Assembly (NCBI RefSeq): GCF_000661915.1 | Contig: NZ_CP007509.1 | Coordinates: 248,001-312,000, forward strand | DNA from: Stutzerimonas decontaminans | Lineage (GTDB): Bacteria; Pseudomonadota; Gammaproteobacteria; Pseudomonadales; Pseudomonadaceae | Direction of reading: 5' to 3' | DNA length: 64,000 nt | Shown here: piece after piece, positions 46,699 to 50,021 of the stretch | How positions within the stretch are numbered: the stretch's first letter is position 1 | Layout: every line of letters begins with the position of its first letter | Notes under the pieces: model-generated | Database searches by the model: none | What the model was told of the DNA's origin: nothing | Seen by the model: the letters and a program-made list of their open reading frames with translations, nothing else | Program-made: the position numbers and the translations under genes

Positions 46699-47844
46699 AT
46701 GGAATTCGAGAAACTTCTGCGCCTGATGGTGGAAAAGGGCGGCTCCGATCTATTCATCACGGCCGGCGTGCCGCCTTCGATGAAGGTCAATGGCAAGATC
46801 ATGCCGGTGAGCAAGACGGCGATGTCGCCGGAGATGACCCGGGAAACCGTGCATGGCGTGATGAACGAGCAGCAGCGCCGCGAGTTCACCGAAAACCATG
46901 AGTGCAATTTCGCCATCAGTGCCCGTGGTATTGGTCGCTTCCGCGTCAGCGCCTTCTACCAGCGCAACCTGGCCGGGATGGTGCTGCGGCGCATCGAAAC
47001 CAACATTCCGACCATCGAAGAGCTGAAGCTGCCGGACGTCCTCAAGAAGCTGTCGATGACCAAGCGCGGGCTGGTCCTGTTCGTCGGCGCGACCGGTACC
47101 GGCAAGTCGACCTCGCTGGCTTCGATGATCGGCTACCGCAACAAGAATTCCAGCGGGCACATCATCTCCATCGAGGATCCAATCGAATTCATCCACCAGC
47201 ATCAGAGCTGCATCGTCACCCAGCGTGAGGTCGGCATCGATACCAGCTCGTTCGAGGTGGCACTGAAGAACACCCTGCGCCAGGCACCGGACGTGATTCT
47301 CATCGGCGAGATCCGTACTCGTGAAACCATGGACTACGCCGTGGCCTTCGCCGAAACCGGTCACCTGTGTCTGGCGACGCTGCACGCCAACAACGCGAAC
47401 CAGGCGCTGGATCGCATCATCAACTTCTTCCCGCCCGACCGTCACAACCAGGTGTGGATGGATCTTTCGCTCAACCTCAAGGCCATCGTCGCTCAGCAGC
47501 TGGTGCCTACGCCTGATGGCAAGGGCCGTCGCGCGGTAATCGAGGTGCTGATCAATACGCCGCTGGCGGCCGATCTGATCCGCAAGGGCGAGGTGCATGA
47601 ACTCAAATCGTTGATGAAGCGCTCCACCGAACTGGGCATGCAGACCTTCGATCAGGCGCTGTATAACCTCTATGTGCAGGGCGAGATCACCTACGAAGAT
47701 GCATTGCTGCACGCCGACTCGGCCAACGACCTGCGCCTGCTGATCAAGCTGGGATCGGAAACCGATGGCGAGCATCTGGCCAGCGTGTCCAAGGGCCTGA
47801 GCCTGGAAGTCAGTGACGAGGACCCAGGCCGTAGCTTCCGCTAG
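46699..47844 (+). CDS. pilU: Type IV pilus accessory retraction ATPase PilU
   Basis: 381 aa. Walker A GATGTGKSTSLASM, Asp-box SIEDPIEFIHQ, Walker B DVILIGEIRTRETMD and His box ETGHLCLATLHA. In place of the PilT AIRNLIRE it has ADLIRKGEVHELK, and it carries a longer C terminus, both typical of PilU. PilU works only with PilT to boost retraction force. Its last four bases overlap the end of the convergent DUF4130 gene. Confidence 0.97.
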   Translation: MEFEKLLRLMVEKGGSDLFITAGVPPSMKVNGKIMPVSKTAMSPEMTRETVHGVMNEQQRREFTENHECNFAISARGIGRFRVSAFYQRNLAGMVLRRIETNIPTIEELKLPDVLKKLSMTKRGLVLFVGATGTGKSTSLASMIGYRNKNSSGHIISIEDPIEFIHQHQSCIVTQREVGIDTSSFEVALKNTLRQAPDVILIGEIRTRETMDYAVAFAETGHLCLATLHANNANQALDRIINFFPPDRHNQVWMDLSLNLKAIVAQQLVPTPDGKGRRAVIEVLINTPLAADLIRKGEVHELKSLMKRSTELGMQTFDQALYNLYVQGEITYEDALLHADSANDLRLLIKLGSETDGEHLASVSKGLSLEVSDEDPGRSFR

Positions 47845-48677
47845 TCAGCCTGTTCTGCCGCCCGGCCGATGCGCTTTCCGTTCTTGGCGGCGACGCGCTC
47901 GGCCTGGCCGTCACGCTGCGCGCCGGCTCGCGCGCGGCTCATCAACTGCGGGATCAACATGCCTTCGGGCAGATTCTTCCAGAAGCGCACCGGCAGGTTG
48001 TTCTCCAGCACGCCGCGGTTCAGCCGGGCCGGGTTGAACGTGCTTTCGTAATACGCCTTCCATAGTTCTCCGCCGGGGTCCGCCGCGTTCTGCGCCAGTT
48101 GCCGCCATTGCGTCGGGCAGGGCCGGGTGTAGTAGATCCCCTGTCCATCCCAGCAGACACCTTCTTCTGGCGTCGCGATCAGCCAGCTGTTCCCGCCCAT
48201 CCGTTCGGCGAAATGCCCTGCTGCCCACGGCAGTACGTCGTGCGCGGGCTCGAACCAGGCGACGTGCTGCGGTCCGTCACTGGTTTGCAGCGGGCGGAAG
48301 CGAAGAAATGCATGCAGATGATGGGCTTCGCGGCGGACTGCCTTGATTCGACCGTGCAGTTCGCTGCCGTCGATATCGCCCACCATTCGCGCACTCGAAT
48401 CGCCCTGGTTTACACGCCAGAGCACGCGATATAGCAGGCTCCAGCGATGTTCGGTGCGATAGCGTGCCGCCATCTCGAGCTCATCCAGCAGCTGTCTCGG
48501 TACACGAATCCGCTGGCCGCTCTCATTTGCCGGGGTGGGCAGGGGTTCCTCGAACAGTCCTGCCGATTCATTACCACCCGCCCAACTCACTTCATGTGGC
48601 GCGACCTGGCTCTGCAGCAGTGCACGAGCGCGGTTTCGCCATTCCTGGAAGCTCCCATCGAAGCGAACCGTGAGCAT
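47841..48677 (-). CDS. DUF4130/TIGR03915-type 'DNA metabolism' protein
   Basis: 278 aa from the ATG at 48677, which shares one base with the TGA of the radical SAM gene. The segment MLTVRFDGSFQEWRNRARAL and later PHEVSW, LLYRVLWRV, MVGDIDGSELHGRIKAVRREAHHLHAFLRF and FWKNLPEGMLIPQL match the family that always sits with the radical SAM 'DNA modification/repair' protein. Many relatives carry a uracil-DNA-glycosylase-like (UdgX) domain after this point; here the protein ends in a short basic tail, so that domain is missing. Molecular activity is unknown. It overlaps pilU end-on by 4 bp. Confidence 0.8.
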   Translation of the reverse strand: MLTVRFDGSFQEWRNRARALLQSQVAPHEVSWAGGNESAGLFEEPLPTPANESGQRIRVPRQLLDELEMAARYRTEHRWSLLYRVLWRVNQGDSSARMVGDIDGSELHGRIKAVRREAHHLHAFLRFRPLQTSDGPQHVAWFEPAHDVLPWAAGHFAERMGGNSWLIATPEEGVCWDGQGIYYTRPCPTQWRQLAQNAADPGGELWKAYYESTFNPARLNRGVLENNLPVRFWKNLPEGMLIPQLMSRARAGAQRDGQAERVAAKNGKRIGRAAEQAD

Positions 48678-49888
48678 CACCAGAGCGCCAGCTGTGCAGG
48701 GGTGTCGCGCAGATGCTGGCGCAGCATGGCTGACTCGTGCCCAGCCAGGCTTGGCCGGTAATCCTGGGTGATGACGAAGGGTTTGGCTTTCTCCAGGGAG
48801 CAACGCAGGCGAGTCAAATCCTCGAAGCGGATGCGTTTGTGCCGGCGTAGATCCACCAGGCGTTTCGCGCTGAGCATGCCGATTCCGGGGATGCGCGCGA
48901 TCATCATGGGTTCGGCGCGATTGAGGTCCACCGGAAACTGGTCGCGGTGGGCCAGCGCCCAAGCCAGCTTCGGGTCGATATCCAGCGCGAGGTTGCCCGG
49001 CCCGCTGAGCAGTTCGCTGGCGTTGAAGCCATAGCCACGCATGAGAAAGTCGGCCTGATACAGCCGGTGCTCGCGCATCAGCGGTGGTGCCGCGAAAGGC
49101 ACGGTGTTGGGGCTGTGCGGAATCGGGCTGAAGGCCGAGTAATAGACCCGGCGCAAGCGATAGCTGCCGTATAGCGACTGGGCCGTTTGCAGGATGGTGC
49201 TGTCGTCGGTGCTGTCGGCGCCGACGATCATCTGCGTGCTCTGCCCAGCAGGTGCGAAGCGCGGCGCACGCTTCTCGGCGCTGGCCTCGGTTTCGCCCTG
49301 GTGGATGGTGTGCATGGCATGCTTGATGGTCACCACCTGCTTTTCCGGCGCCAGACGGATCAGGCTGGTTTCGGTTGGCAGTTCGATGTTCACGCTGAGC
49401 CGGTCGGCGTAGCGGCCGGCTTCGGCGATCAGTAGGGGATCGGCGTCAGGAATGGTCTTGAGATGGATGTAGCCACGAAACTCGTGCTCCTCACGCAGCA
49501 GCCTGGCGACCCGCACCAGCTGCTCCATGGTGTAGTCCGCCGAGCGAATGATGCCGGAGCTGAGAAACAGGCCGCTGATGCAGTTGCGCCGGTAGAAGTC
49601 GAGCGTCAGGCTGACCACTTCTTCCGGCGTGAAGCGCGCCCGCGGTACATCGCTGGAGCGGCGATTGACGCAGTACTGACAGTCGTAGAGGCAGAAGTTG
49701 GTCAGCAGGATCTTCAGCAGCGCGACGCAGCGACCATCCGGCGTGAAGCTGTGGCAGATGCCCATACCGTCAGTGGCGCCGAGACCGCTCTTGCCCTTCG
49801 AGCTGCGCTTCGGTGCGCCGCTGCTGGCGCAGGAAACGTCGTACTTGGCTGCGTCGGCGAGCACGCTGAGTTTGTCGATCAATTGCAT
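48677..49888 (-). CDS. Putative DNA modification/repair radical SAM protein
   Basis: 403 aa from the ATG at 49888; I prefer this over ATG 49936 because the latter would put the LexA-like palindrome inside the gene. Radical SAM cluster at Cys66, Cys70 and Cys73 (CLYDCQYC). The start MQLIDKLSVLADAAKYDVSC and KFAPAGQSTQMIVGA-like FAPAGQSTQMIVGADST are family features (TIGR03916 type). A helix-hairpin-helix near the C terminus (IARIPGIGMLSAKRLVDLRR, about 325-345) suggests DNA or RNA binding. With the DUF4130 gene it forms a two-gene SOS-type cassette. Substrate unknown. Confidence 0.88.
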   Translation of the reverse strand: MQLIDKLSVLADAAKYDVSCASSGAPKRSSKGKSGLGATDGMGICHSFTPDGRCVALLKILLTNFCLYDCQYCVNRRSSDVPRARFTPEEVVSLTLDFYRRNCISGLFLSSGIIRSADYTMEQLVRVARLLREEHEFRGYIHLKTIPDADPLLIAEAGRYADRLSVNIELPTETSLIRLAPEKQVVTIKHAMHTIHQGETEASAEKRAPRFAPAGQSTQMIVGADSTDDSTILQTAQSLYGSYRLRRVYYSAFSPIPHSPNTVPFAAPPLMREHRLYQADFLMRGYGFNASELLSGPGNLALDIDPKLAWALAHRDQFPVDLNRAEPMMIARIPGIGMLSAKRLVDLRRHKRIRFEDLTRLRCSLEKAKPFVITQDYRPSLAGHESAMLRQHLRDTPAQLALW

Positions 49889-49895
49889 GACGGTG

Positions 49896-49929
49896 ACCGT
49901 GATACTGTTTGCATATACAGTATCACGGT
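49896..49929. promoter_or_regulatory. LexA (SOS) box of the radical SAM/DUF4130 cassette
   Basis: The core TACTGTTTGCATATACAGTA (49903-49922) has the CTG-N10-CAG LexA layout. The palindrome is much longer than needed: 13 bases on each side are perfectly inverted around an 8-bp centre. It lies 8-41 bp before the radical SAM ATG on the minus strand, overlapping the likely promoter. Confidence 0.85.
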
Positions 49930-50021
49930 TGCGCATGGCAGCAAGGTCCGTCGGGCGGGGCGGTTAAAGCGCATTATCGGATAAGCTGGACGCCACTCAT
50001 CAATCGCACGTCGAGGTTCGG

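Follow-up and report, generated by a model that had tools for sequence, protein, structure and literature searches.

The gene pair described here lies in a 64,000-nucleotide stretch of Stutzerimonas decontaminans (contig NZ_CP007509.1, positions 248,001 to 312,000; hereafter the window) and encodes a radical S-adenosylmethionine (SAM) protein with a helix-hairpin-helix (HhH) segment, hereafter the rSAM protein, and a DUF4130 partner. Judged from its sequence and that of its relatives, the pair is a real and conserved cassette under predicted SOS control, from a family that is known but uncharacterised. That it encodes a radical enzyme which is induced by damage, is recruited to the sliding clamp and acts on DNA is a reading to which we give even chances; the reaction narrows to radical chemistry, for which DNA is the most likely target. 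We infer LexA binding, clamp binding, the metal content and DNA as the substrate.

The gene pair and its operator

Profile searches place the rSAM protein in TIGR03916 (rSAM_link_UDG; 544.6 bits, curated cut-off 343.5) and the partner in TIGR03915 (194 bits, cut-off 112.25) and PF13566 DUF4130 (123.3 bits, Pfam cut-off 27). This agrees with an initial annotation of the window, which had proposed a radical SAM protein with HhH and a DUF4130 partner, a CxxxCxxC motif and coupling of both genes. The motif (CX3CX2C) was found as C66, C70 and C73, and the genes overlap by one base in TGATG, the partner start sitting inside the rSAM stop. The models Radical_SAM PF04055 (27.8 bits) and HhH PF12836 (20.7 bits, about residues 319-358) score just below and below their Pfam cut-offs of 29.5 and 27, respectively. 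Since relatives conserve an ATG at 49888, the rSAM start was placed there and the mechanical open reading frame (ORF) start at 49936 was rejected. Adjacent genes, HhH and CxxxCxxC are shared with the TIGR03916 and TIGR03915 family in general, both cut-offs being well exceeded, but many relatives have a fused UdgX domain, which the partner in the window lacks. The rSAM part is weakly similar to many radical SAM families of NCBIfam (ThiH, HydE, MoaA, CofG). Against solved structures, the HhH segment is weakly similar to ComEA/RuvA-type motifs, and nothing was found for the rSAM protein beyond these weak HhH matches and cluster-loop matches.

The core of a LexA box lies 14 bases from the rSAM ATG. 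Its exact pattern has a single match in the window, none in 100 shuffles of it and four in the whole genome. A genome search at three or fewer mismatches gave 413 matches versus 767 for a backwards control pattern; since the control is commoner, such loose matches mean nothing. The same motif class precedes recA-, umuD- and yebG-like genes (named by eye) in this genome, as well as lexA, which is preceded by two boxes, both further from the symmetric consensus than the box of the cassette. The left flank of the box was read by eye as a putative promoter with an extended -10, TGATACTGT; a scan for consensus promoters and terminators found no promoter site at the cassette.

Conservation of the operator was determined in the genus and in wider relatives. 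The rSAM gene is found over the cut-off in 47 of 56 genus genomes, the own genome included, and in each of these a CTG-N10-CAG box lies closely upstream of the start, which reads CTGT-N8-ACAG in 42 and in full TACTGT-N8-ACAGTA in 37. The LexA box with 13-bp perfect arms put forward in the initial annotation is present, but the arms occur in just three of the 47 genomes, that of the window among them; they are no conserved property and were rejected as a functional unit. In the genus alignment, conservation is 74-100% in the left flank GTGA and 60-64% in the right-hand CAC; the 100% at CTG and CAG follows from how the search was built. A symmetric C and G outside the LexA core are conserved in 100% and 96% of the 47 sequences. 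In the nine genus genomes that lack the gene, the distance between the pilU-like and TM2-type genes is 79-260 bases in eight and about 480 in the ninth (L273), where the gap holds just short frames without assignment; neither of two box patterns is present in these nine loci. Since the flanking genes adjoin where the pair is missing and no box is found there, the genes and their operator behave as a single optional module.

Another 110 loci were collected, from 30 of the 53 phylum genomes with an rSAM protein over the cut-off and from the best 80 of at least 591 named loci. They show GAAC-N7-GAAC in either orientation (71 loci), a CTG-type box at most 150 bases from the start (20 strict and 6 relaxed) or GTCTCA-N5-TGAGAC (4). 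Classified by name or kinship, with 25 genomes labelled 'same phylum, other class' counted as Alphaproteobacteria and genome G148 as Xanthomonadaceae by inference, 71 of 75 alphaproteobacterial loci have the GAAC-type operator and 26 of 29 gamma- and betaproteobacterial loci outside Xanthomonadaceae the CTG-type box; neither of two Planctomycetes/Verrucomicrobia loci has a recognised operator. Elsewhere in the same loci these motifs are rare, with 30 alpha-type and 9 strict gamma-type matches in 944,408 bases. The predicted operator of the cassette is one that follows clade-specific LexA motifs, and the SOS control suggested in the initial annotation gains from both the box in every gene-bearing genome of the genus and the clade-appropriate motifs in alpha- and gamma-/betaproteobacteria.

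Table 1. Features of the cassette, with positions in the window.
Feature	Position	Strand	Length, sequence or basis
rSAM gene, TIGR03916 (rSAM_link_UDG)	48677..49888	-	403 aa + stop; profile search
Partner gene, TIGR03915 / DUF4130	47841..48677	-	278 aa + stop; profile search
Codons of C-terminal QLALW, clamp-binding-like motif	48680..48694	-	tail pattern conserved in homologues
LexA box core	49903..49922	.	TACTGTTTGCATATACAGTA, on - strand TACTGTATATGCAAACAGTA; TACTGT-N8-ACAGTA, near-consensus
Extended palindrome, 13-bp perfect arms, 8-base spacer	49896..49929	.	3/47 genus genomes, not a conserved unit

The pair stands between a pilU-like gene, the stop of which overlaps its 3' end, and a TM2-type gene opposite its start (both named by eye). 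Elsewhere in the genome, umuD-like genes are twice divergent from SRAP/YedK-like genes (by eye) and share a LexA box with them, at L052 (C1:590000-593500) and L055 (C1:3652000-3655500), both with partial TIGR00498 matches. Small uncharacterised ORFs of 85 and 144 aa lie directly behind LexA-box-like sites at L050 and L056, respectively.

Partner, C-terminal tail and extra cysteines

Of the 110 loci, 105 have a same-strand DUF4130 frame downstream. The exceptions include L107 and L139, which stop at a contig end, and L174, with 691 bases downstream and no DUF4130; in L083 and L086 DUF4130 is found about 3 kb downstream of the rSAM gene. Among 299 sampled phylum genomes, counted as raw tallies that ignore phylogeny, DUF4130 is present in 53/53 rSAM genomes, and 3 of 56 DUF4130 genomes have no rSAM protein over the cut-off. 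UdgX is present in 39 of the 53, absent above its cut-off from the other 14, the genome of the window included, and present in 12 genomes that lack rSAM. We found no earlier mention in the open-access literature of this strict pairing with a separable UdgX, nor any open-access paper on UdgX together with a radical SAM protein.

By length, the 105 DUF4130 ORFs comprise 77 long, 26 short and 2 intermediate forms, some short ones (L081, L082, L120) being cut by locus ends. All six long forms tested have a UdgX domain, and the UdgX motifs GEQPG (motif A) and KRR[ILV]H occur in 76 and 54 of the 77, respectively; of the 23 long forms outside KRR[ILV]H, the eight displayed show K-x-R-L-H. In contrast, the partner in the window has no UdgX domain (no TIGR03914 match), and the best UdgX score of its genome is 29.5 bits versus a cut-off of 189.95, from what by eye is a different UDG-like protein. 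Matches to the rSAM protein were also found on 158 of 72,556 plasmid and 10 of 50,697 phage records; the 240-kb records CAKLQH020000003.1 and CAKLQF020000004.1, labelled Acinetobacter phage, both encode it.

At its C terminus the rSAM protein typically has Q-[LM]-x-L-[FW], here QLALW, which resembles, though more loosely, the sliding-clamp-binding consensus QL[SD]LF. A strict search pattern, somewhat wider than Q-[LM]-x-L-[FW], matches the last 25 residues of 95 of the 110 proteins, versus 0.04 matches for every 25 residues of the protein bodies, and those of 114 of 120 close homologues. Among the 15 of 110 that it misses, most have a near form (QLxLI or QMALAL, for example), and L139 has none at its end. 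For the Psychrobacter-like L063 protein, 117 of 120 homologues have the pattern in their last 30 residues (one counted as QTKFG); this set takes in named Moraxellaceae and Bacteroidota. Within the last 8 residues the motif occurs in 85 of 110 proteins versus 9 of 2166 background frames, which are six-frame stretches of at least 150 codons and mostly not genes. Conservation at the motif positions 399, 400, 402 and 403 is 4.29, 3.00, 4.00 and 2.75 bits, versus a linker mean of 1.94; Q399 is found in 348 and L402 in 333 of 349 aligned rSAM proteins. In the open-access literature we found no earlier mention of this tail and no paper on a radical SAM protein with a clamp-binding motif.

The same alignment, from which 2 of 240 homologues had been dropped as short and in which many rows are close relatives, shows C45, C54, C70, C73, H46 and H142 in 349/349 proteins, C66 in 348 and C20 in 347. 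Since C20, C45 and C54 are near-invariant besides the CX3CX2C cysteines, they suggest a second metal site, for which a second FeS cluster is a natural guess. Such a three-cysteine site would be shared with MoaA-type enzymes, which have a second cluster, but here the three residues lie on the N-terminal side of CxxxCxxC, and the site is putative. No earlier mention of these cysteines was found in the open-access literature.

Proposed mechanism and alternatives

We take COG4277 with COG1573 to be the TIGR03916 and TIGR03915 pair, an equation that the source name of P0191, 'predicted DNA-binding helix-hairpin-helix protein', fits. The initial annotation regarded the family as known only as annotation, but predictions are in print. 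For Bacteroidetes, PMC8565304 lists the COG1573-COG4277 operon among predicted SOS targets and also cites Verrucomicrobia and Alphaproteobacteria, which is SOS/LexA control of apparently the same family; the window differs by a gamma-type operator and the lack of UdgX. For DUF4130, a role as a mutagenesis-related enzyme has been predicted, with ties to rSAM 'photolyases' and uracil-DNA glycosylases (PMC3765255), LexA-linked radical SAM proteins are mentioned without family (PMC9380542, PMC7739468) and SplB homologues have a predicted SOS link in alpha- and betaproteobacteria (PMC3323433). UdgX is a uracil-DNA crosslinking protein (PMC10359453, PMC10776899) that crosslinks through H109 and has a physiological role called largely unknown (PMC10359453). 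The damage control predicted here would extend the published predictions to this lineage. No report of the reaction of the TIGR03916/TIGR03915 pair was found in the open-access literature.

We propose that a LexA-repressed operon would deliver a two-subunit enzyme after DNA damage. Its rSAM subunit would grip DNA non-specifically via the HhH domain and be brought to replicating DNA through its C-terminal Q-L-x-L-F/W tail, which would dock on the beta sliding clamp. The [4Fe-4S] cluster at CX3CX2C would cleave SAM, yielding a 5'-deoxyadenosyl radical for use on a damaged or unusual base, and the C20/C45/C54 metal site may help hold the flipped-out base, in analogy to the second cluster of MoaA, which holds GTP. 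DUF4130, the near-obligate partner, probably serves in recognition or positioning. Because uracil-capturing UdgX is fused to DUF4130 in many relatives, the probable target is a pyrimidine lesion or an abasic-type intermediate. The initial annotation suggested nucleic-acid repair or modification; a nucleic-acid role is supported by the HhH match, the clamp-like tail and the UdgX fusion in relatives, with repair, modification and mutagenesis all candidates. In its most specific form, an SOS-induced, clamp-recruited radical enzyme with two metal sites would edit bases at stalled forks, DUF4130 presenting the base and UdgX being optional; we put this forward tentatively.

Several points weigh against this mechanism. 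The extra cysteines could form a zinc site instead, and C54 appears to lie just before the first barrel strand. No fold was found for the DUF4130 partner among solved structures (best E 0.8), and 9 of the 110 loci lack a recognised operator. The linker also has conserved residues (L389, R390, P397), and the tail could bind DUF4130 or a different protein. That it is a docking peptide for DUF4130 rather than for the clamp would suit two proteins that are nearly inseparable, but the tail follows the clamp consensus, is terminal and comes after a more variable linker, which leaves this somewhat unlikely.

Direct reversal of UV thymine products, as by SplB (TIGR04070), would involve a protein that is likewise a radical SAM DNA-repair enzyme; the genome of the window has no TIGR04070 match of its own, and DUF4130 has been grouped with SplB-like rSAM photolyases (PMC3765255). 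Similarity to SplB is however limited to the cluster loop: BLASTP gives E 0.13 over 12 residues, the CxxxCxxC stretch alone, a profile comparison aligns 28 columns (probability 18%, E 0.0013; three SplB-like sequences, none over the family cut-off) and SplB is absent from the 10 NCBIfam families that match the rSAM protein at E ≤ 1. SplB membership was rejected on these grounds. To our knowledge SplB has neither the extra cysteines nor a clamp-like tail, and we regard SplB-like reversal as improbable. An equally doubtful option is a uracil/abasic pathway, in which rSAM-DUF4130 would process or resolve UdgX-DNA crosslinks at uracil sites. It draws on the long, UdgX-bearing partner forms and on the crosslinking by a protein of largely unknown role (PMC10359453), but UdgX is below the cut-off in the genome of the window and 13 more of the 53 rSAM genomes, and it occurs without rSAM in 12.

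A clamp-like tail is likewise a feature of ImuB and UmuC. Together with the predicted SOS control, the tail is compatible with a mutagenesis factor that would alter bases of the template and let SOS polymerases copy them, in line with the mutagenesis-related role predicted for DUF4130 (PMC3765255). No polymerase gene was noticed beside the pair though, its neighbours by eye being pilU and a TM2-type gene, and we consider such a factor unlikely. An anti-phage or RNA-modification system would fit the sporadic presence in 47 of 56 genus genomes and on some plasmid and phage records, but no PADLOC match was obtained at E ≤ 1, for which a defence system was rejected, and both the SOS operator and the fusion to UdgX suggest a link to DNA damage; this is very improbable. 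Our preferred reading is that of a radical enzyme induced by damage, recruited to the clamp and active on DNA.

A palindrome in Xanthomonadaceae and implications

In all four Xanthomonadaceae loci the cassette has GTCTCA-N5-TGAGAC in place of the LexA box. Among 60 genomes of the family of G148, 41 contain the exact palindrome and none the backwards pattern. Gene neighbours were counted within 1.5 kb either side of 75 sites (L176-L180, L189-L258; family inferred), 72 of at least 75 listed and three others. A DEXH helicase related to TIGR03817, presumably MrfA/YprA-like, lies near 26 (four of them 26-30% identical), mraZ near 10, the rSAM gene near 9, and uvrA, recA, dnaB and rmuC near two each (one rmuC at 27%); one of five other reference genes is near six sites and none near 16. 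Except for rSAM, the reference proteins were drawn from the same loci, hence each of these counts includes the reference itself once. A check versus NCBIfam covered UvrA and the helicase, the latter, cut by a locus end, remaining under the cut-off; recA, mraZ, dnaB and rmuC were named by eye.

Of six over-cut-off lexA loci in four such genomes, three have a TTAG(T/C)AGTA-type palindrome before lexA and none GTCTCA-N5-TGAGAC; since lexA loci show this other palindrome, the regulator of GTCTCA-N5-TGAGAC is probably not that LexA. One palindrome, at L230, has next to it a MerR-like regulator (by eye) that points away from it and is a candidate regulator. Nothing relevant on the motif was found in the open-access literature. 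The palindrome may mark an undescribed, possibly LexA-independent DNA-damage regulon.

The gene pair is widespread, with the rSAM protein over the cut-off in 53 of 299 sampled phylum genomes and damage control predicted by clade-specific operators. Three features lend themselves to a simple, decisive test, namely the clamp-like tail, the extra cysteines and the form without UdgX, and the nine genus members without the module provide natural comparisons.

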